DNA from: Ruegeria aquimaris
GTDB taxonomy: Bacteria; Pseudomonadota; Alphaproteobacteria; Rhodobacterales; Rhodobacteraceae
Length of the DNA: 64,000 nucleotides
Direction of reading: 5' to 3'
Assembly (NCBI RefSeq): GCF_025751555.1
Contig: NZ_JAOWLB010000002.1
Location: 372,001 to 436,000 of the forward strand
This document shows positions 6,715 to 16,338 of the stretch, one piece after another. The translations under genes and the position numbers were made by a program. Within the stretch, counting starts at the first letter, position 1; every line of letters begins with the position of its first letter. The notes beneath the pieces are model-generated. The model was not told the DNA's origin and searched no databases. It saw only the letters and a program-made list of their open reading frames with translations.

Positions 6715-6727
6715 CTGAGTGCTGGTT

Positions 6728-9178
6728 TTAGACCTTTACCCGCTCGGATTTGGGATCATACATCGGGGCGAGCGAGGCCTCGGCGCGGATGCGGGTACCC
6801 ATCACGTCGATCTCGTAGGTCGAGGCCAAAACATCCGCCGCGCTTTCGCCTTCGCAGGGGACATAGCCCATGCCGATGGCGCCGCCCAGATGGTGGCCGT
6901 AGGCGCCGGAACTCAGGTAGCCGACGATCTGGCCGTCCCTGATCAACGGCTCGTTGTGGTAGAGCAGCGGTTCGGGGTCGGTCAGGCGGAACTGGACCAT
7001 ACGGGTCTTGAGCCCCTCGTCTTTCTTTCGCAGCACCGCGTCTCGGCCGATGAAATCGGGCTTGTCGGTCTTGACGGCAAAGCCAAGTCCCGCCTCCAGC
7101 ACGTGATCCTCGGGCGTGATGTCATGGCCGAAATGGCGGAACGCCTTTTCGATCCGGCAGCAATCCATCACATGCATGCCGCAGAGTTTCAGGCCCAGGT
7201 CCTGGCCCGCCTCGAACAGGGTCTCGAACGCATGGCCCGCCATGTCGGAGGACACGTAGATCTCCCACCCGAGTTCACCCACATAGGTCACGCGGTGGAC
7301 GCGGGCGAGGCCCATGCCCAGTTCGATCTCCTGCGCGGTGCCAAAGGGATTCACGTCGTTGGAGAAGTCGTTAGGGCTGACCCGCGCCATCAAGTCGCGC
7401 GCCTTGGGGCCCATCACCGCCAGCACGCCCTCGCCCGCCGTCACGTCGGTGATCACCACGCGGAAATCGCCCACGAGGCGCATCATCCGGGTCTGATCGG
7501 CATAGCGGGTGGCGGCGGGGGTGACCACCAGATAGGCGGTCTCGCTCAGGCGGGTGACGGTAACGTCGGCCTCGATCCCGCCGCGTGCGTTCAGGAACTG
7601 GGTATAGACGATGCGGCCCACGGGCACGTCGAACTGACCGCCCGCGATATGGTTCAGATAGGCGGTGGCGTCCGGCCCTTCGACCCGGATCTTGCCGAAG
7701 GAGGACATGTCATACATGCCCAGCCCGGTGCGGATCGCCTTGTGTTCCTCGGCCACGTTGTCAAAGAAGTTCTGCCGCCGCCAGCTGTAGCGGTATTCGC
7801 GTTCCTGATCCGGGCGCGCGTACCAGTTGGCGCGTTCCCAGCCCGCCAGTTCGCCGAACACGGCGCCTTGTGCCTTGAGATGTTCGTGGAATGGGGTGCG
7901 GCGCACCCCGCGCGAGGTGGCTTTCTGCCGGTAGGGGTAGTGATCGGCATAGAGCAGGCCCAGCGTCTCGGTCGAGCGTTCGACCAGATAGCGCTTGTTG
8001 CCCTGGAAGGGCTGCATGCGGGCGATGTCGACATCGCCCAGGTCAAAGGGCTTCTCGCCGCTGTCCATCCACTGGCTGAGCGCATGGCCCGCGCCGCCCG
8101 CCGACTGAATCCCGATCGAGTTGAACCCGGCGGCGACCCAGACATTGTCCATCTCGGGCGCAAGGCCAAGGTGATAGGCGTCGTCGGGGGTAAAGCTTTC
8201 GGGTCCGTTGAAGAAGGTGTGGATACCCGCGCTACCCAGCATCGGCATGCGGTTCACGGCGGCCTCGAGGATGGGTTCGAAATGGTCGAAATCCTCGGGC
8301 AGCTGGTCGAATTCGAATGTGTCGGGAATGCCGTCCATGCCCCAGGGTTTCGATTTCGGCTCGAACGCGCCCAGCATCATCTTGCCGGCGTCTTCCTTGT
8401 AATAGGCGCATTCGTCGGGGACGCGCAGAACCGGCATCTGGGTCAGGCCCTGGATGGGTTCCGAGACGATGTAGAAATGTTCGCAGGCCTGGAGCGGCAC
8501 ATTGATGCCCGCCATGCGGCCCACCTGGTGGCCCCACATACCGGCGCAGTTCACGATCATGTCGCAAGTGATATGGCCCTGTTCGGAGCCATCGTCGCTG
8601 ATCCAGTCGACGCCGGTGACCCGGCGGCCCTGTTTGGCGATGCCGGTGACGCGGGTCCGCTCCTTGACCACGGCGCCGCGCTGGCGGGCGCCCTTGGCAA
8701 GGGCCAGCGCGATATTGGCCGGGTCGGCCTGACCATCGGTCGGCAGCCAGACCCCGCCGGTGACGCCATCGAGGTTGATATGCTGGTAGCGCTCCTTGAC
8801 CTCGGCAGGCGACAGTTCCTCGACCGGGACGCCAAAGGCGCGGGCCATGGCGGCGTTGCGATAGAGCTCTTCCAGCCGTTCACCCGTGAGCGCGACCGAG
8901 ACCGAACCCACCTGCCGCATGCCGGTGGCAACGCCGGTTTCGGCCTCGAGCCCCATATAAAGCTCGGCCGAATAGCGGGCGAGCTTGGTCATGTTGGAGC
9001 TGGCACGGAGCTGGCCGATCAGGCCCGCGGCATGCCAGGTGGTGCCCGAGGTCAGTTGCTTGCGTTCGAGCAGAACGACGTCTTTCCAGCCGAGCTTGGT
9101 CAGGTGATAGGCGACCGAGCAGCCGACGACACCGCCGCCGATGATGACCACGCGGGCCTGGGTGGGAAGATCAGCCAT
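6728..9178 (-). CDS. FAD-dependent oxidoreductase with GcvT domain, dimethylglycine/sarcosine dehydrogenase-like (paralogue 1)
   Basis: 816 residues. This family oxidatively removes N-methyl groups; the GcvT part can pass formaldehyde to tetrahydrofolate. The N-terminal dinucleotide fold VVIIGGGVVG is at residues 10-19. WHAAG at 48-52 contains His49, matching the histidine that carries covalent FAD in dimethylglycine dehydrogenase. The DAO domain runs to about 370, then an FAO_M linker, then GcvT N- and C-terminal domains (ending near PMYDPKSERVKV). It is the last gene of the operon, 87 bases after the GlxA-type regulator. Dimethylglycine versus sarcosine versus another N-methyl amine cannot be decided. 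Confidence 0.87.
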   Translation of the reverse strand: MADLPTQARVVIIGGGVVGCSVAYHLTKLGWKDVVLLERKQLTSGTTWHAAGLIGQLRASSNMTKLARYSAELYMGLEAETGVATGMRQVGSVSVALTGERLEELYRNAAMARAFGVPVEELSPAEVKERYQHINLDGVTGGVWLPTDGQADPANIALALAKGARQRGAVVKERTRVTGIAKQGRRVTGVDWISDDGSEQGHITCDMIVNCAGMWGHQVGRMAGINVPLQACEHFYIVSEPIQGLTQMPVLRVPDECAYYKEDAGKMMLGAFEPKSKPWGMDGIPDTFEFDQLPEDFDHFEPILEAAVNRMPMLGSAGIHTFFNGPESFTPDDAYHLGLAPEMDNVWVAAGFNSIGIQSAGGAGHALSQWMDSGEKPFDLGDVDIARMQPFQGNKRYLVERSTETLGLLYADHYPYRQKATSRGVRRTPFHEHLKAQGAVFGELAGWERANWYARPDQEREYRYSWRRQNFFDNVAEEHKAIRTGLGMYDMSSFGKIRVEGPDATAYLNHIAGGQFDVPVGRIVYTQFLNARGGIEADVTVTRLSETAYLVVTPAATRYADQTRMMRLVGDFRVVITDVTAGEGVLAVMGPKARDLMARVSPNDFSNDVNPFGTAQEIELGMGLARVHRVTYVGELGWEIYVSSDMAGHAFETLFEAGQDLGLKLCGMHVMDCCRIEKAFRHFGHDITPEDHVLEAGLGFAVKTDKPDFIGRDAVLRKKDEGLKTRMVQFRLTDPEPLLYHNEPLIRDGQIVGYLSSGAYGHHLGGAIGMGYVPCEGESAADVLASTYEIDVMGTRIRAEASLAPMYDPKSERVKV

Positions 9179-9265
9179 GTTTGTCTCCGGATCTTGGGAT
9201 TTGCCCGAGAATGGCACGGGTGGGCGACAGGAAATCCATCAAAAACGTCACGCGACTTGCAGAAA

Positions 9266-10249
9266 TCACCGCTGCGCGGCGGTTCGCTTCTGTCGTCTGA
9301 GGGCAAAGGGGGTGATGCCGTAGAAGCTCTTGTAAACCGCCGAGAAGCCGTTGGGGAAACCGCAGGCCAGCCCGATCTCGCGAACGCTGAGCGTGGTGTT
9401 CAAGAGCAGGGTATTGGCCTTGGCCAGCCGCATCTCGCGGTAGAAGTTGTTGGGCGTGGTGCCGAGATAGGTCTTGAACTTGCGCTCCAGCGAGCGGTTC
9501 GACAGATCCAGGGCGGCGACGATCTCGTTGATCGGCAGGGGGTCTTCGATATTGGCCTGCATGATCTTGACGCACTGGTCGAGCGCATCGTCGCCGGTGG
9601 CGCTGGTCTTGAGGCCGGACATCGGCTGCATCGCGCCAAAATCGCGGATATGTTCATGCAGCATGATGTCGGCCACGGTCATCTTGGCCGGTCCCGAGAT
9701 ATGCCGTCCGATGACCGAAAGCGCCACGTCGACGGTGGCGCCCATTCCGGCGCAGGTGATCACCGGCCCCTGCTGGGTGGCGATGGAAAAGCGCGCGTCG
9801 AAGCGCGCGCCGCGTTCGCGCAGAAAGGCCGCGTTTTCCCAATGGGTGGCCAGATCGGCGCTGCCGCGTTCGTTGATATAGCGGCTGGCGGCCTCGGCCA
9901 ACAGAAACACCTGTGCGCCGCGAAAGGTATAGTCCTGCACCACCCGGCCCAGCGACAGGTCGGGCTGGTCGGGGTCGGTATTGCCGATGACAAAGAGGTA
10001 ATCGGCCTGCGGCTGGCTTGGCACCCGCTCGGTCGCGACCACGGCGCCGCTGCTGCTTTCGATCAGGCCGCCGCGCAGGGAGCGGTAGGTGAAGGCAAAC
10101 GGCGGGTTGGGACAGACCCGGTTGGCGATGCGCAGCACATCGACAAGGCCCGCCAGTTCGGTCAGCACGAAGCCGGGGGCGACGAGCACATCGAATTGCC
10201 AGGTCTTCTTGTCCGGGTTCACCAGACGCAGGTTGCGTTTGGCCGTCAT
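9266..10249 (-). CDS. GlxA-family AraC-type transcriptional regulator (GbdR-like)
   Basis: 327 residues. The first ~190 form a DJ-1/PfpI-like sensor domain (FDVLVAPGFVLTELAGLVDV near the start). The last ~100 are an AraC-type double helix-turn-helix, with LSNRSLERKFKTYLGTTP and IGLACGFPNGFSAVYKSFYG. The same architecture is found in GbdR, the activator of glycine betaine and dimethylglycine catabolism in Pseudomonas, which fits the neighbours. It starts 11 bases after the methyltransferase stop and precedes oxidoreductase 1. Role as operon activator is inferred. Confidence 0.85.
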   Translation of the reverse strand: MTAKRNLRLVNPDKKTWQFDVLVAPGFVLTELAGLVDVLRIANRVCPNPPFAFTYRSLRGGLIESSSGAVVATERVPSQPQADYLFVIGNTDPDQPDLSLGRVVQDYTFRGAQVFLLAEAASRYINERGSADLATHWENAAFLRERGARFDARFSIATQQGPVITCAGMGATVDVALSVIGRHISGPAKMTVADIMLHEHIRDFGAMQPMSGLKTSATGDDALDQCVKIMQANIEDPLPINEIVAALDLSNRSLERKFKTYLGTTPNNFYREMRLAKANTLLLNTTLSVREIGLACGFPNGFSAVYKSFYGITPFALRRQKRTAAQR

Positions 10250-10260
10250 GGCGGGGGTCC

Positions 10261-11157
10261 TCAGACGATGCTGTGCCCGGCGGCGCGGAGCCGCTGGGCC
10301 AGATGCGCGATATGGGCGGGGCCGACCTCGCAACAGCCGCCGACGATGGTGGCGCCCTGATCGACCCAGCCCATGGCGAAATCGGCATAGGCCTCGGGCG
10401 TGAGGTCGACGCGGGCGGTGAGCGCCTCGACCGTGGGGCGGTCCTTGAGGAACCCTTCGGTGATGCGGGTGAAGCCGTTGGCATAGGCGCCGAAGGGCAG
10501 GCCGAAGCCCGCGATGATGTCGAGGGCGGCGGCCATGGCCTCGGGCCGGGAGCAGTTCACCAGCACCGCTTGCGGTTGGTACTGGGCGACGATGGCGGCA
10601 AGTTCGCCCACCCCCTCGCCCGAGCGCAGGCGGCTGCCATCGTCATCCATCACGGTGACCGAAAGCCAGACGGGTTTGGTGCCGAGGGACGCGCCCCGGA
10701 GCGCGCCTTCGGCCTGAGCGACCGAGGCGGCTGTTTCGATCAGGAACAGGTCGACCCGGTCGTTCATCGCGCGCACGCTGTCGGCATAATACGCCTCGGC
10801 TTCCGCGGGCGGCGGGCAGATGTCGGGGCGGTAGGAGGCGCCGAGCGGCCCCAGCGCGCCCGCGATGCGGCCCGAACCATGCGCGGCGCGGGCGGTTTCG
10901 GCCTGGGCCAGCGCGGTGTCGATCAGCGCCGCGAACCGGTCGCCGATCCCGGCCGGTTCCAGCCGGTCGCGCAGCACCGCATAGGTGTTGGCGGTGGCGA
11001 TGGTGGCGCCCGCGTCGAAATAGTCACGATGCACGGCGCCGACATGGTCGGGCGTCTCGAGCATGACAGAGGTGGACCAGAGCGGCGTCGGGCGCTTGCC
11101 CGCGCGTTTGACCAGTTCCTGGCCGATGGAGCCATCAAGCAGGGTAATGTCGGTCAT
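10261..11157 (-). CDS. Homocysteine S-methyltransferase family protein (BHMT/MmuM-like)
   Basis: 298 residues, a TIM-barrel zinc methyltransferase. It would move a methyl group from a betaine or sulfonium donor to homocysteine, giving methionine. Seen: LLDGSIGQEL at the N-terminus, a first zinc Cys in VNCSRPEAM, and the paired zinc cysteines in GGCCEVGPAH near residue 275. The start codon overlaps the previous gene's stop as ATGA (11154-11157), so translation is probably coupled. The context of demethylating oxidoreductases favours glycine betaine or a related compound as donor; this is inference. Confidence 0.87.
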   Translation of the reverse strand: MTDITLLDGSIGQELVKRAGKRPTPLWSTSVMLETPDHVGAVHRDYFDAGATIATANTYAVLRDRLEPAGIGDRFAALIDTALAQAETARAAHGSGRIAGALGPLGASYRPDICPPPAEAEAYYADSVRAMNDRVDLFLIETAASVAQAEGALRGASLGTKPVWLSVTVMDDDGSRLRSGEGVGELAAIVAQYQPQAVLVNCSRPEAMAAALDIIAGFGLPFGAYANGFTRITEGFLKDRPTVEALTARVDLTPEAYADFAMGWVDQGATIVGGCCEVGPAHIAHLAQRLRAAGHSIV

Positions 11158-12221
11158 GGGTGCTCCTGTGGCGGAATGAGGACGATCTTGCCGGGCAGGC
11201 GTTTGGTCATGAACTCGGCCTGTGCCTCGGCGATCCGGTCGAGCGGATAGGTGGCCGAGACCAGCGGGCGAATGGCGCCTGTATTGATCAATGCGATCAG
11301 GTCAGCAAAGACCGCGCGCGGCTGGTAGGTGGCGCCGTGGAGGGTGATGTCGGGCAGGTAGATCTGGCGCAGGTCGGCGGTGACCATCGGCCCGGCGATG
11401 GCGCCCGAGACAGCATAGTGCCCGCCGGGTTTCAGGGCGCGGATCAGGTCGGGCCAGAGCGGGCCGCCGACCACGTCAATCACCCGGTCGAAATGGCCGA
11501 GCGGGGGCGTGTCGTCGCGGCCCAGGATGGCTTTTGCCCCGGCGGCACTGACGGCCTCGGCCTTGGTCGGCGCGGTCATCGCGGTGACCGTGGCGCCCAG
11601 ATACGCGGCCAGTTGCACGGCAGCGAGCCCCACGCCGCCCGAGGCGCCGGTGATCAGCACCGCCTCGCCCTGCCCCACGCCGCAGCGCGCCAGCAGGTTC
11701 CAGGCGGTGCCATAGGCACAGGGCATGGCGGCGATTTCGATGTCCGAGAGCGACGAGGTAGTGACGTCGAAGAGGTCAGCCGCCTGAAGCAAACAGTATT
11801 CGGCAAAGGCGCCATCCAGTTCCGATCCGAGCGCCACGAAGCCGAAGGGGTTGTCGGGTGTCGGACGCGGCAGGTTGATCTGGCAAGTGACGCGCTGGCC
11901 TATGGTCCAATCGGTCACGCCAGCGCCCAGAGCGACGATGCGGCCGCAGAGGTCGCCGCCCTGGATGCGGGGGAAGTTGAGCGCCCCGGCCCAGCCGCCC
12001 GCCTCGCCCGTCTCGCCACTGTCGGTGGCGCCGGTTACATCCGAGGAATACCAGCCGATCCGCGTGTTGATGTCGGTATTGTTGACCCCGGCGGCCAGCA
12101 CCCGGACCAGAATCTGCCCCGGCCCGGGGGCCGGGACAGGGATGTCATCGCACCACGCCAGCGCCTCTGGCCCGCCGTGGCGGGTCAGTTGGACGCCGGA
12201 CATGGTTGCGGGGATGGTCAT
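11154..12221 (-). CDS. MDR-family NAD(P)-dependent oxidoreductase, quinone-oxidoreductase-like
   Basis: 355 residues with a GroES-like N-terminal domain (PGQILVRVLAAGVNNTDINTR) and a Rossmann domain with GASGGVGLAAVQLA. The catalytic-zinc cysteine expected in alcohol dehydrogenases is replaced by Asn (GVNNTD), so it belongs with the zinc-free quinone reductase/crotonyl-type reductases. It overlaps both neighbours by ATGA junctions (12218-12221 and 11154-11157), placing it firmly in the operon. The substrate, perhaps an unsaturated or carbonyl intermediate of the pathway, is unknown. Confidence 0.85.
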   Translation of the reverse strand: MTIPATMSGVQLTRHGGPEALAWCDDIPVPAPGPGQILVRVLAAGVNNTDINTRIGWYSSDVTGATDSGETGEAGGWAGALNFPRIQGGDLCGRIVALGAGVTDWTIGQRVTCQINLPRPTPDNPFGFVALGSELDGAFAEYCLLQAADLFDVTTSSLSDIEIAAMPCAYGTAWNLLARCGVGQGEAVLITGASGGVGLAAVQLAAYLGATVTAMTAPTKAEAVSAAGAKAILGRDDTPPLGHFDRVIDVVGGPLWPDLIRALKPGGHYAVSGAIAGPMVTADLRQIYLPDITLHGATYQPRAVFADLIALINTGAIRPLVSATYPLDRIAEAQAEFMTKRLPGKIVLIPPQEHP

Positions 12222-14665
12222 GCGCGCAGCCGCTCGTTTTCGGGATCCCAGAGCGGTTGATCGGGCTGCACCACGGCGCGGCATTTCTGCCCGTAGATTT
12301 CGACCTCCAACTCGGTGCCCGGCACCGCCAGATCGGCGCGCACCATGCCTAGCGCAACGCTGGCGTTGATCCGGTAACCCCAGGCGCCCGAGGTGGTCTC
12401 GCCCACGATCTGCCCGTCATGCCAGAGGCAGGACATATAGGGCGCGTCGCAATCTCCGGCCTCGACCAGCAGGGTGACGAAGCTTTTCTTCACCCCGCGC
12501 TGTTTCTCGGCCAGGATCGCGGCCTTACCGGGGAAATCCTGTGGCTTGTCGAACTTGACGAAGCGTTCCAACCCGCCTTCGAGCATCGAGTAATCGGTCG
12601 ACAGGTCGCCCTTCCACGCGCGATAGCCTTTTTCGAGGCGCAGCGAGTTCAGCGCCCACATGCCAAAGGGTTTGGCCCCGGCACCAAGGATCGCATCATA
12701 GATCGCGGGCATGTGTTCGTTGAGCGCGTGCACCTCCCATCCCAGTTCCCCGGCAAAGGAGACCCGGATCAGGAAGGCGGGCTGGCCCGCGACGGTGGCG
12801 GCCTGATGCGTCAGCCAGCCTTGCGACAGGTCAGCGTCCGACAGGCTGGCGAGGATCTCGCGCGATTTCGGGCCGGTGACGATCAGCGTGTCGCGGGTGG
12901 TGGTGACATCCTCGACCGTGACACCGGCGGGCATGGCACCCAAGAGGATATCGCGGTCGTGCCATTGCGCGGTGGCCGCGGTGATCATCACAAACTCGTC
13001 CTCGCCCAGCCGGATGCAGGACATCTCGGTCAGGATGCGGCCACGGCTTTCGGAGATGTAGACCAGGTTCATTCGCCCCACCTTGGGCAGGCCGCCGGTG
13101 ATCAGGCCGCGCAGCGCCTCGGCGGCACCTGCGCCCTTGACCAGAAAGCGCGAGAAGCCGGGCAGGTCGAGCACGCCGCAATGGTCGCGCACGGCCTGAC
13201 ATTCCTCCTTGATCCGCTGCTCCCACGGGCCCGAGCGGCCCCAGGTGTGGGTGCTTTCCTCGGACGTGTCATCGCCCGGCTGCGCGAACCAGTTGGCGCG
13301 TTCCCAGCCGTTATAGACGCCCATGACTCCGCCCTGCGCCTTGACCCGGTCATGCACCGGCGAGAGTTTCTTGTCGGGCGCGGCAGGCCAGCGGTGCCAG
13401 GGGAAGTGCATGGCATATTCGTTGCCATAGACCTCCATGCCCTTTTTCACGCAGTAGTCGTGATCGGTGTAGTCGGTATAGCGGCGCGGATCGCAGGACC
13501 ACATGTCCCATTCGGTCTGGCCATCGACGATCCATTCCGCCAGCACCTTGCCCGCACCGCCGCCCTGAGCGATGCCGAAGGTGAACACGCAAGCCTCGAA
13601 GGCGTTCTTCACACCGGGCATCGGGCCGATCAGCGGCAATCCGTCGGGGGCATAGGGAATCGGGCCGTTGATGATGCGACTGACACCGGCGGTGGCAGTG
13701 ACGGGCACGCGTTCCATCGCGTCGGCGACGATATCCTCGATCCGGTCCAGATCGTCCGACCAGAGCTGGAAGCTGAAATCGTCCGGCATCGGGTCGCTGT
13801 CCACGTCCCAATGGGCACGGCAGTTGGGCTCGTACGGGCCGATGTTGATGCCGTTCTTTTCCTGCCGCAGGTAATAGGACACGTCCACATCGCGCAGCAG
13901 AGGCAGCTTGCGGCCGTTCTCCTTGGACCAGGCCTCAAGCTCGGGGATCTGTTCGGTCAGCAGGTACTGGTGGCTCATCACCATCATCGGCACGGTGCGC
14001 CCGCCATGGGGCTTGAACCATTCGCCGACCCTCTGGGCATAATATCCCGCCGCGTTCACCACGTATTCGCAAGCGATGTCGCCCTTGTCGGTATGCACGA
14101 TCCAGCTGCCATCATCCTGCTGGGTGACGCCGGTTGCGGGACAGAAGCGGATGATCTTTTGCCCCATGTCACGGGCGCCCTTGGCCAGCGCCTGGGTCAC
14201 CTGCGCCGGGTCGATATCGCCGTCGTGCGGGTCGTAGAGCGCGCCGACGATGTCGTGGGTCTCGATGAACGGATAATAATCCTTGATCTGGTCGGGGGTG
14301 AGGATTCGGATATCCATCCCCTGATAACGGCCCATGGCGGCGGCGCGTTCGAACTCCTGCATCCGCTCGCGTGTATGCGCCAGCCGGATCGAGCCGGTCT
14401 GGTGGTAGTTCATCGGATAATCGACCTCGGCCCCCAGACGGCTGTAAAGCTCGGTCGAGTAACGCTGCATGTTCATGATCGACCACGAGGTCGAAAAGGT
14501 CGGCACGTTGCCCGCCGCATGCCAGGTGGAACCCGCCGTCAGTTCGTTCTTTTCCAGCAGAACGCAATCGGTCCAGCCCTTCTTGGCCAGGTGATAGAGC
14601 GAGGACACCCCCACCACACCGCCACCGATGATGACCACGCGGGCCTTGTTGGGAAAATCGGACAT
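12218..14665 (-). CDS. FAD-dependent oxidoreductase with GcvT domain, dimethylglycine/sarcosine dehydrogenase-like (paralogue 2)
   Basis: 815 residues with the same layout as the gene at 6728-9178: VVIIGGGVVG at residues 10-19, WHAAG with His49 for FAD attachment, a DAO domain, an FAO_M linker, and GcvT domains in the C-terminal half. The two paralogues begin almost alike but differ widely inside, so they probably act on different substrates or successive demethylation steps. The ATG at 14665 is preferred over the GTG two codons upstream because GGGAG is five bases from the ATG. It begins nine bases after the GFA gene. Confidence 0.87.
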   Translation of the reverse strand: MSDFPNKARVVIIGGGVVGVSSLYHLAKKGWTDCVLLEKNELTAGSTWHAAGNVPTFSTSWSIMNMQRYSTELYSRLGAEVDYPMNYHQTGSIRLAHTRERMQEFERAAAMGRYQGMDIRILTPDQIKDYYPFIETHDIVGALYDPHDGDIDPAQVTQALAKGARDMGQKIIRFCPATGVTQQDDGSWIVHTDKGDIACEYVVNAAGYYAQRVGEWFKPHGGRTVPMMVMSHQYLLTEQIPELEAWSKENGRKLPLLRDVDVSYYLRQEKNGINIGPYEPNCRAHWDVDSDPMPDDFSFQLWSDDLDRIEDIVADAMERVPVTATAGVSRIINGPIPYAPDGLPLIGPMPGVKNAFEACVFTFGIAQGGGAGKVLAEWIVDGQTEWDMWSCDPRRYTDYTDHDYCVKKGMEVYGNEYAMHFPWHRWPAAPDKKLSPVHDRVKAQGGVMGVYNGWERANWFAQPGDDTSEESTHTWGRSGPWEQRIKEECQAVRDHCGVLDLPGFSRFLVKGAGAAEALRGLITGGLPKVGRMNLVYISESRGRILTEMSCIRLGEDEFVMITAATAQWHDRDILLGAMPAGVTVEDVTTTRDTLIVTGPKSREILASLSDADLSQGWLTHQAATVAGQPAFLIRVSFAGELGWEVHALNEHMPAIYDAILGAGAKPFGMWALNSLRLEKGYRAWKGDLSTDYSMLEGGLERFVKFDKPQDFPGKAAILAEKQRGVKKSFVTLLVEAGDCDAPYMSCLWHDGQIVGETTSGAWGYRINASVALGMVRADLAVPGTELEVEIYGQKCRAVVQPDQPLWDPENERLRA

Positions 14666-14674
14666 GTTCACTCC

Positions 14675-15046
14675 CTAGTCCTTGTGCGGCGCATCGTCCG
14701 CGATGTCGTAATAGTCGCCCTTGTCGGCGACAAAGATGTGCTTGGTCAGGCGCAGACCTGTGGGGCCATCGACAGAGCCCAGCGAAAAGCTGATCGTGTC
14801 CTCGTCATTGGCCTTCCAGAACAGGAACGCGCCGCAGCGGGCGCAAAAGCCGCGTTTGGCGCTGTCGCTGGCGGCAAACCAGCTGACCGGGCCGGTGATG
14901 GTCAGGTCCGTCTCGGGCACAAAGGCCGAGGACCAGACGCCACCCGATTGCCGTCGGCACTGGCCGCAATGGCACATCGAGGCGCCCTGCGGCGCGGCTT
15001 CGGTCGCGTAGCGGATATCGCCGCACAGGCAGGAACCTTTGATCAT
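14675..15046 (-). CDS. GFA (glutathione-dependent formaldehyde-activating / CENP-V type) family protein
   Basis: 123 residues. Zinc-binding cysteines are visible in GSCLCG (Cys6, Cys8), MCHCGQCRRQSG and GFCARCGAFLF, the standard pattern of the GFA fold. Some members speed the reaction of formaldehyde with glutathione. Placement just before a demethylating oxidoreductase, which releases formaldehyde, fits a detoxifying role. GFA activity has not been confirmed for many family members, so this is inference. Gap to the LysE gene is three bases. Confidence 0.83.
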   Translation of the reverse strand: MIKGSCLCGDIRYATEAAPQGASMCHCGQCRRQSGGVWSSAFVPETDLTITGPVSWFAASDSAKRGFCARCGAFLFWKANDEDTISFSLGSVDGPTGLRLTKHIFVADKGDYYDIADDAPHKD

Positions 15047-15049
15047 GCT

Positions 15050-15673
15050 CTAACCCCTTGTTGCGGGTGCGCTGCTGGTGCCCAGCAACACGCCATAGAT
15101 GATGAAACAGAGCGCCATGGCCCGGCGCAGCCAGGTGCTGAACACCGCGCCCAGCGCCGCGCGGCCCATGAGGGCGCCCAAGAGCGTGAAAGTGGTGTAG
15201 CAAAGCGCGGTGATGATCAGGGCGGTGGGCATGATCACACTCATCTGCTGCCAGATCGGCACATCTGGCTGCACGAATTGCGAGAATGCGGCGAGATAGC
15301 CCGCCACGCTTTTGGGGTTGATCGTGGCAACGGCCAGCGCGTGCAGATAGACATGGCGCGCCGGGCGCACCGCCGTGGGCACGGGTTTCGCCGCATTGCG
15401 CCAGCCCCGGATGCCCAGCCAGATCAGGAACCCGGCGCCTGCGAGCTTGGCCACCAGAAACAGGCTGGGCGAGGCGGTGATCAGCGCCGTCACCCCCAGG
15501 GCCGAGAGCAGCAGAAAGGCACTCGCCTGGGTCAGGATCGCCAGCACCCCCAAGAGCGCCTTGCCAAAGGGCAGGCTCATCCCGTTCGAAATGCAGTTGA
15601 CCGCGTTCGGCCCCGGCGTGGCGGTGAACAGGATCCAGAACAGCGCGAAGATGGTCCAGGCTTCGAAACTCAT
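15050..15673 (-). CDS. LysE-family amino acid/metabolite exporter
   Basis: 207 residues, about six membrane helices, inner membrane. The N-terminal LFTATPGPNAVNCISNGM carries the LysE family's PGPN signature, and IWLGIRGWRNA lies at the end of the third helix. LysE/RhtB proteins export amino acids or related small molecules. In this operon it may relieve build-up of sarcosine, glycine or a similar intermediate, but the substrate is unknown. It starts ten bases after the regulator's stop. Confidence 0.85.
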   Translation of the reverse strand: MSFEAWTIFALFWILFTATPGPNAVNCISNGMSLPFGKALLGVLAILTQASAFLLLSALGVTALITASPSLFLVAKLAGAGFLIWLGIRGWRNAAKPVPTAVRPARHVYLHALAVATINPKSVAGYLAAFSQFVQPDVPIWQQMSVIMPTALIITALCYTTFTLLGALMGRAALGAVFSTWLRRAMALCFIIYGVLLGTSSAPATRG

Positions 15674-15683
15674 GACCGCGCCC

Positions 15684-16253
15684 TCAATAGACCGGTGGCG
15701 CGATCACCCAGACGGCCACGGCGGGCTCGTCATGGGGGTTGGCCCATTGATAGGGTTCGTGGCGGATGCGGAAACTGTCACCCGGCCCGACCGAGAACTG
15801 ACGGCCGCCGATGGTCAGCTCCAGCCGCCCCGACAGCATGTAGCCCACCTCTTGCGTCGGGCGGTTGGCCGGGGTCTGCATCCGCGAATGCGGGGCAAAG
15901 GTGGAATGCACCATCTCGAAATCGTCGGTCAGGTCCGGCGACAAGAGTTCTTCGATCAGTCCCTCCTCGCCCGAGCCCATCGGGCGCCGCGCGCCTGCCC
16001 GCACCACATAACCCTGTTCCTCGGCCGGGGCGGCGGCATGGGCAAAGAGCATCGACATCGGCACGCCCAGGCAACCCGCGATCTGGCGCAGATCGGAAAT
16101 CGAGGGTTCGGACATGTCGCGCTCCACCTGGCTGAGCCAGCCGACCGAGCGCCCCAGCCGCGTCGCGATCTCGCTGAGCGTCAGCCCGCGCGCCTTGCGC
16201 AGGGCGCGCAGATCGGCGCCAAGCGTCGCGCTGGACGGGGCTTGCGTATTCAC
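15684..16253 (-). CDS. XRE-family regulator with C-terminal cupin domain (operon-head regulator)
   Basis: 189 residues. A helix-turn-helix at about 14-65 (LRALRKARGLTLSEIATRLG, then GWLSQVERDMSEPSISDLRQIA) is followed by a cupin sensor domain at about 115-185 with PTQEVGYMLSGRLEL and VGPGDSFRI. Start: a GTG at 16253 with GGGAGG five bases upstream; another in-frame GTG at 16283 has no such site. It heads the eight-gene operon and lies 17 bases from a tandem inverted-repeat operator, so autoregulation is likely. Regulators of this build often respond to small-molecule substrates. Confidence 0.88.
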   Translation of the reverse strand: MNTQAPSSATLGADLRALRKARGLTLSEIATRLGRSVGWLSQVERDMSEPSISDLRQIAGCLGVPMSMLFAHAAAPAEEQGYVVRAGARRPMGSGEEGLIEELLSPDLTDDFEMVHSTFAPHSRMQTPANRPTQEVGYMLSGRLELTIGGRQFSVGPGDSFRIRHEPYQWANPHDEPAVAVWVIAPPVY

Positions 16254-16269: not shown

Positions 16270-16338
16270 TCGTGAAAAATCACTGTAGAATTTCATGATG
16301 ACGTGATTCTCGTGAAAAACTCAACATAAATTTCACGA
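16270..16338 (-). promoter_or_regulatory. Tandem 29-bp inverted-repeat operators upstream of the XRE-cupin gene
   Basis: Two copies of TCGTGAAA-N13-TTTCAYGA are seen: 16270-16298 (second arm TTTCATGA) and 16310-16338 (second arm TTTCACGA). Half-site centres are spaced 21, 19 and 21 bases, close to two helical turns, so all four face the same side of the helix. The array sits just upstream of the operon-head regulator. It most likely binds that regulator; this is inference from symmetry and position. Confidence 0.7.

Follow-up and report, generated by a model that had tools for sequence, protein, structure and literature searches.

A Ruegeria operon with two FAD-GcvT enzymes and its probable role in the later demethylation steps of a trimethylammonium compound

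The stretch of Ruegeria aquimaris DNA analyzed here (the window) is 64,000 nt long and holds, at positions 6728–16253 of its minus strand, an operon of eight genes, two of which code for FAD-GcvT paralogues (FG2 and FG1). The genome it comes from has 5.04 Mb in 61 contigs, which are given C labels below; L and G labels denote loci and genomes fetched for comparison. The operon encodes, in transcription order, an XRE-cupin regulator, a LysE-family exporter, a GFA-family protein, FG2, an MDR quinone-oxidoreductase-like protein, a homocysteine S-methyltransferase family protein (HMT), a GlxA/AraC-type regulator, and FG1. The successive junctions measure 10, 3, and 3 or 9 bases, then follow two ATGA overlaps, 11 bases, and 87 bases. 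The first-pass annotation had listed these eight minus-strand genes with the same order, spacing, and 87-base gap before FG1, all of which were confirmed from the limits of the open reading frames, and Pfam placed every one of the eight proteins in the family stated there.

FG2 (12218–14665, minus strand) is a probable dimethylglycine dehydrogenase and FG1 (6728–9178, minus strand) a probable sarcosine dehydrogenase. Both were read from an ATG; an alternative in-frame GTG for FG2 lies at 14671, and the ATG at 9178 was preferred for FG1 because genome G193 has a stop codon immediately upstream of it. Each protein combines the four domains DAO, FAO_M, GCV_T, and GCV_T_C in a single chain and passes all four Pfam cut-offs. 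In an alignment, both retain the histidine of the TWHAAG motif and residues matching His225, Tyr259, and Asp552 of DMGO; at the last of these positions, FG2 and rat DMGDH both have Glu. We take the TWHAAG histidine to be the covalent FAD site and the three DMGO residues to be catalytic. The best PDB matches of FG2 were mammalian DMGDH entries (579–585 bits), and FG2 and rat DMGDH have the stretch SYYLRQE..G...GPYE in common. FG1 scored 458 bits against DMGDH and 431 bits against DMGO.

Conservation was assessed by scanning genome contigs with FG2 and keeping the best 80 of at least 590 relatives (FG2 identity 76–96%). By title, nearly all kept loci are from Rhodobacteraceae, with two unplaced alphaproteobacteria and one locus labelled Nocardioides. 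Gene content was counted, with thresholds for identity and cover, in the 65 loci with enough sequence on either side. In 61 of them FG1 follows FG2, which is more than chance would give and supports the earlier view of a demethylation operon built around a FAD-GcvT pair. The XRE-cupin gene precedes FG2 in 58, and all eight genes occur together in 11. The core of the operon is thus XRE-cupin, FG2, and FG1, and the other five genes are accessory. Gene order deviates in two of the 80 loci (L050 and L094), where in each case two accessory genes have traded places. The loss of gene order that would have spoken against the first-pass annotation was thus not seen, while gene content varies widely, and the varying presence of the accessory genes counts against one indivisible eight-gene pathway. 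Within the genus, the distance from FG2 to FG1 is approximately 5.5 kb start to start in all five genomes; the full set of eight genes is present in three (the window, G192, and G193), and G190 and G191 are without LysE.

The linkage of the FG2–FG1 pair was followed outside the family using 385 class-level genomes. A match to FG2 at E ≤ 1e-250 was present in 32, and all 31 besides our own were fetched, giving four loci from the same family as the window and 27 from outside it; genes within 500 bases were counted as adjacent. The second probe was an MttB-family corrinoid methyltransferase encoded elsewhere in the R. aquimaris genome (C4:40840–42384), the relatives of which, as compared by tblastn, are referred to as C4 type. 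In 20 of the 27 outside-family loci, a C4-type MttB gene adjoins FG2 or FG1, its product being 55–66% identical to our own C4 protein. FG1 adjoins FG2 likewise in 20 of the 27, and in 15 it does so together with a C4-type gene. Among the seven loci without the C4 type, three stop at a contig edge (L147, L148, and L200) and four have none (L146, L150, L195, and L197); L146 and L197 also lack FG1, and in L197 an MttB gene of another type adjoins a weaker FAD-GcvT paralogue. As a control, eight of 11 matches to weaker FG2-like paralogues were fetched (43–47% identity; 41–45% by tblastn), and none of these eight loci contained any of the MttB types searched or FG1. The R. aquimaris genome has eight MttB-family genes, and approximately 3% of 20-kb windows are expected to hold one by chance. 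The linkage would be a separate argument for assigning FG2–FG1 to the later demethylation steps of glycine betaine and would set this pair apart among the nine FAD-GcvT paralogues of the genome. Since none of the eight genes codes for an enzyme that would take the first methyl group off a betaine, the "complete path" proposed in the first-pass annotation is not supported; in other families, an MttB-type gene adjoins the pair. Within the best 80 loci, a C4-type gene was found in eight (L023, L040, L041, L043, L047, L061, L089, and L093), and in L043 and L047 it is 83% identical to our own. Three loci (L143, L186, and L188) carry a second MttB gene, nearest to our own C44 type (51–52% identity), on the opposite side of the FG2–FG1 pair, so that a single cluster contains both MttB types in some genomes.

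The XRE-cupin gene (15684–16253, minus strand, GTG start; Pfam HTH_31/HTH_3 and Cupin_2) is preceded by two predicted operator copies, neither assigned to a strand. Copy 1 (16312–16336) is a GTGAAA-N13-TTTCAC palindrome and the sole exact match in the genome; copy 2 (16272–16296) has one mismatch and lies 40 bases from copy 1. Paired copies 40–41 bases apart were also present in the four other genus genomes. Conservation of the site was determined in 67 upstream regions, comprising the window and 66 loci with an XRE match of at least 50% identity and 80% cover and with enough upstream sequence. The form RTGAA-N15-TTCAY occurred at least once in 63 of the 67 regions and at least twice in 37. 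With a slightly stricter form, a spacing of exactly 15 was found in 61 regions, and spacings of 8–14 and 16–22 were each found in 0 or 1; the expectation from a Markov model was ≤0.15 at any spacing, and a coding control gave 0 of 80. In a scan of 15 of the 27 outside-family loci, all six with an XRE-cupin gene (L142, L144, L190, L192, L193, and L194) had a palindrome site, 39–118 bases before the XRE match and with a spacing of 15 in four and of 16 in two; three stray sites lay elsewhere in L144, L151, and L199. In the same six loci, the MttB gene is the last gene of the operon. Thus, the site goes with the XRE-cupin gene across loci, which argues that this protein binds the palindrome and is a probable autoregulator of the operon, and the conserved palindrome makes a control site and its regulator directly testable. 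As the mark of a wider regulon, the palindrome was rejected: with up to one mismatch, GTGAAA-N13-TTTCAC matched at ten genome places, two of them here, versus three for a reversed control pattern, and the C4 MttB gene carries none of the other eight.

The closest named match to FG2 among the matches listed was from Ruegeria pomeroyi strain SZCCDBG043 (96%). By gene order, the operon would correspond to SPO3396–SPO3403 of R. pomeroyi DSS-3. The order FG1, GlxA, HMT, MDR, FG2, GFA, LysE, XRE agrees with SPO3396 to SPO3403 at four published tags: SPO3400 and SPO3396 were named dimethylglycine dehydrogenase and sarcosine dehydrogenase, respectively, in a 2015 paper (PMC4744692), and tables in PMC4809877 list a homocysteine S-methyltransferase under SPO3398 and LysE under SPO3402. 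A fifth tag, SPO3394 (GDSL-like lipase, PMC4809877), is one gene off, because in the window FG1 is separated from the GDSL gene by two genes, of the EamA and M20 families, and the SPO numbering leaves room for one. A 217-nt antisense RNA, cis78, has been reported on SPO3398, which is the HMT gene of the operon (PMC4809877). In a literature search by SPO locus tags, the passages retrieved contained no description of the operon, the palindrome, or its regulators. The enzyme names are thus already in print; new here are the linkage to MttB genes, the palindrome with its conservation, and the division of the operon into a core and an accessory part.

For the C4 MttB gene, a counterpart in R. pomeroyi was sought by position. 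It lies approximately 28 kb from a gene for a B12-binding protein (C4:12297–13058), with a DUF1638 gene nearby, and available passages of PMC12478193 give SPO2160 as a cobalamin-binding protein, SPO2162 as a DUF1638 protein, and SPO2134 as MtgB2. Because the distance to the B12-binding and DUF1638 genes fits that of SPO2134 to SPO2160 and SPO2162, the C4 gene is, by position only, probably that of MtgB2; a rough count gave 21 genes separating the C4 gene from that of the B12-binding protein, and the SPO tags imply 25. According to the same passages, SPO2108 and SPO2134 are raised in cells grown with N-osmolytes, as are proteins of the predicted dimethylglycine and sarcosine steps, which the passages leave unnamed (PMC12478193). 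Across the literature passages retrieved, the R. pomeroyi genes for the later steps of glycine betaine demethylation are predictions.

Starting from the gene families, their order, the MttB linkage in other families, and the palindrome, we propose, with a probability of roughly 0.6, that the operon acts on a trimethylammonium compound, most likely the major marine osmolyte glycine betaine, and strips off its second and third methyl groups. The first step would fall to an MttB-family enzyme, probably MtgB2, with its gene at another place in the genome; it would load one methyl group onto a corrinoid protein, giving dimethylglycine. FG2 would then oxidize one N-methyl group of dimethylglycine on its covalent FAD, pass the carbon to tetrahydrofolate, and yield sarcosine, on which FG1 would act likewise to give glycine. 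Three methyl groups on one nitrogen would fit this scheme because it comprises one MttB-type and two FAD-GcvT steps, and glycine betaine to dimethylglycine to sarcosine to glycine would be the simplest chain that suits it. From the names given in the 2015 paper (PMC4744692) and the closeness of FG2 to DMGDH, we infer that FG2 takes the first and FG1 the second FAD-GcvT step. The XRE-cupin protein would bind both palindromes in front of its gene and govern the operon, positively or negatively, in response to a small ligand, which may be dimethylglycine or sarcosine.

Several observations weigh against this proposal. No MttB gene was present in the fetched stretch of any of the four same-family loci, the nearest MttB gene on the contig of the window is more than 100 kb away from the operon, and XRE-cupin was found in only six of the 27 outside-family loci. 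In the PDB comparison, which covered three of our eight MttB proteins, the C4 protein scored 200 bits against the solved glycine betaine methyltransferase 9yce, versus 195 bits against the trimethylamine methyltransferase 7xcl; the C5 protein reached 398 bits against 9yce, its best match being the unassigned 4yyc (687 bits), and the C14 protein reached 171 bits against 9yce. All nine full-length FAD-GcvT proteins of the genome have the residues of DMGO positions 225 and 259 and a D or E at 552, and rat DMGDH shows the same identity, 38%, to FG2, the C22 protein, and the C60 protein. Thus, homology permits dimethylglycine as a substrate but cannot single out one of the nine paralogues, and it was rejected as a means of choosing the substrate. 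Furthermore, MttB genes of other types adjoin the C44 FAD-GcvT gene and stand near that of C22, the C26 FAD-GcvT gene adjoins a pterin-binding gene, and two genes with a sarcosine oxidase alpha A3 domain (C1 and C18) could use sarcosine instead. No activity or mutant data for SPO3400 and SPO3396 were found in the literature passages retrieved.

The likeliest alternative, a live one although less probable than our proposal, is that the C4-type MttB enzyme and then the pair act on a different betaine and that glycine betaine is handled by other MttB and FAD-GcvT genes. The much closer match of C5 than of C4 to 9yce among the three MttB proteins compared, the C26 arrangement, and the nine paralogues, which suggest several substrates, all speak for it; against it, SPO2134 itself is raised in N-osmolyte-grown cells (PMC12478193), with the positional equation of C4 and SPO2134 as the connecting step. 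In a related and slightly less probable version, XRE-cupin, palindrome, and FG2–FG1 would form a sensor-demethylase cassette for a betaine other than glycine betaine, one with breakdown genes still unassigned; the MttB gene would come last in some alphaproteobacterial families, and the eight-gene form of roseobacters would have MttB at another locus and have acquired an exporter along with a second regulator. For homarine catabolism as an alternative, a literature search, which was the only approach taken, yielded no paper with the name of a hom operon. It is improbable that FG2 and FG1 are two enzymes with unrelated substrates under one promoter, within a general set for one-carbon recovery that belongs to no single pathway. 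Such a set would be in line with the wide variation of the accessory genes and with the nearest paralogue of FG1 being the C37 protein (46% identity; its gene adjoins an Oxidored_FMN gene) and not FG2 (35%), but the placement of FG1 after FG2 in 61 of 65 loci and beside it in 20 of 27 outside-family loci suits consecutive steps. The self-contained path of the first-pass annotation, in which BHMT-type methyl transfer would be joined by handling of formaldehyde and by export, is very improbable, since the named domain families are present but no betaine methyltransferase was found in the operon, HMT is nearer to MmuM than to BHMT, and LysE, GFA, MDR, HMT, and GlxA are each absent from many relatives.

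The accessory genes all lie on the minus strand. HMT (10261–11157; Pfam S-methyl_trans; 44 of 65 loci) scored 65 bits against the BHMT model, below the cut-off of 338, so that the label "BHMT-type" was not retained; against the MmuM-type NCBIfam model it scored 129 bits, where the cut-off of 215 was not reached either. That HMT might duplicate the MtgE-like C11 protein was considered but not backed (27% identity). As a guess, HMT could form methionine with methyl groups taken from donors in the cell. The GFA protein (14675–15046; 51 of 65 loci) passed the GFA domain test (79.7 bits) and had no NCBIfam match. Enzymes with a GcvT folate domain normally pass the carbon to tetrahydrofolate, with methylene-tetrahydrofolate as the expected product. 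Free formaldehyde is therefore no necessary product, and GFA, missing in 14 of 65 loci, need not handle it, contrary to the release and handling of formaldehyde first envisaged. The MDR protein (11154–12221; Pfam ADH_N and ADH_zinc_N) was present in 26 of 65 loci.

LysE/RhtB-family exporter genes were found in 37 of 65 loci and orthologues of the window gene (15050–15673; Pfam LysE) in 29; this protein could, again as a guess, export surplus amino acid. Several relatives have a different LysE-family exporter between GFA and FG2 (L020, 9366–9989; L083, 9370–9993; Pfam LysE), that of L020 being 31% identical to the window protein, and it looks as if export was kept while the gene was replaced. 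The GlxA/AraC-type regulator (9266–10249; HTH_18; 31 of 65 loci) was rejected as GbdR, with approximately 122 bits versus a cut-off of 480 and only rank six in the genome. No protein of the genome reaches this equivalog cut-off; the best match (383 bits; L113, 8361–9365) is encoded near a Peripla_BP_6 gene and, as judged by eye, ABC transporter genes. A small cupin gene (Cupin_2, AraC_binding; 156–158 codons) lies within the operon in L024 (12473–12949) and L060 (14925–15395). At L106 (12166–15853), a FAD-GcvT gene follows a pterin-binding gene and is a second candidate for such a demethylation step. Very long antisense frames are common in high-GC coding DNA, and two plus-strand frames opposite the operon (6719–10360, 1213 codons; 12419–16135, 1238 codons) are not regarded as genes.

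Among known systems, SPO3400 and SPO3396 of R. pomeroyi DSS-3 are, by order, the same genes as FG2 and FG1, and the available text of PMC4744692 gives names for them, not tests. The presence of two regulators in one operon had been called unusual, but GlxA- and XRE-family genes recur in trimethylamine clusters of Rhodobacteraceae, according to a figure legend in PMC7574528. In the trimethylamine cluster of R. pomeroyi, an AraC-type activator, TmaR, is accompanied by a second regulator, TmoR (PMC13390433); like the operon described here, this cluster has two regulators, one of them AraC-type, whereas its enzymes and substrates differ. Mammalian DMGDH and Arthrobacter DMGO, at an identity of 27–38%, share the domain plan and the catalytic residues with FG2 and FG1, and rat DMGDH has the TWHAAG (FAD) motif; the operon is bacterial, with regulators of its own. 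In glycine betaine demethylation by MtgBCD, as described in passages of PMC12478193, the genes of the later steps are often near mtgBCD in marine bacteria, whereas the MttB genes of R. aquimaris are remote from the operon; the FG2–FG1 pair would act on the product of MtgB.

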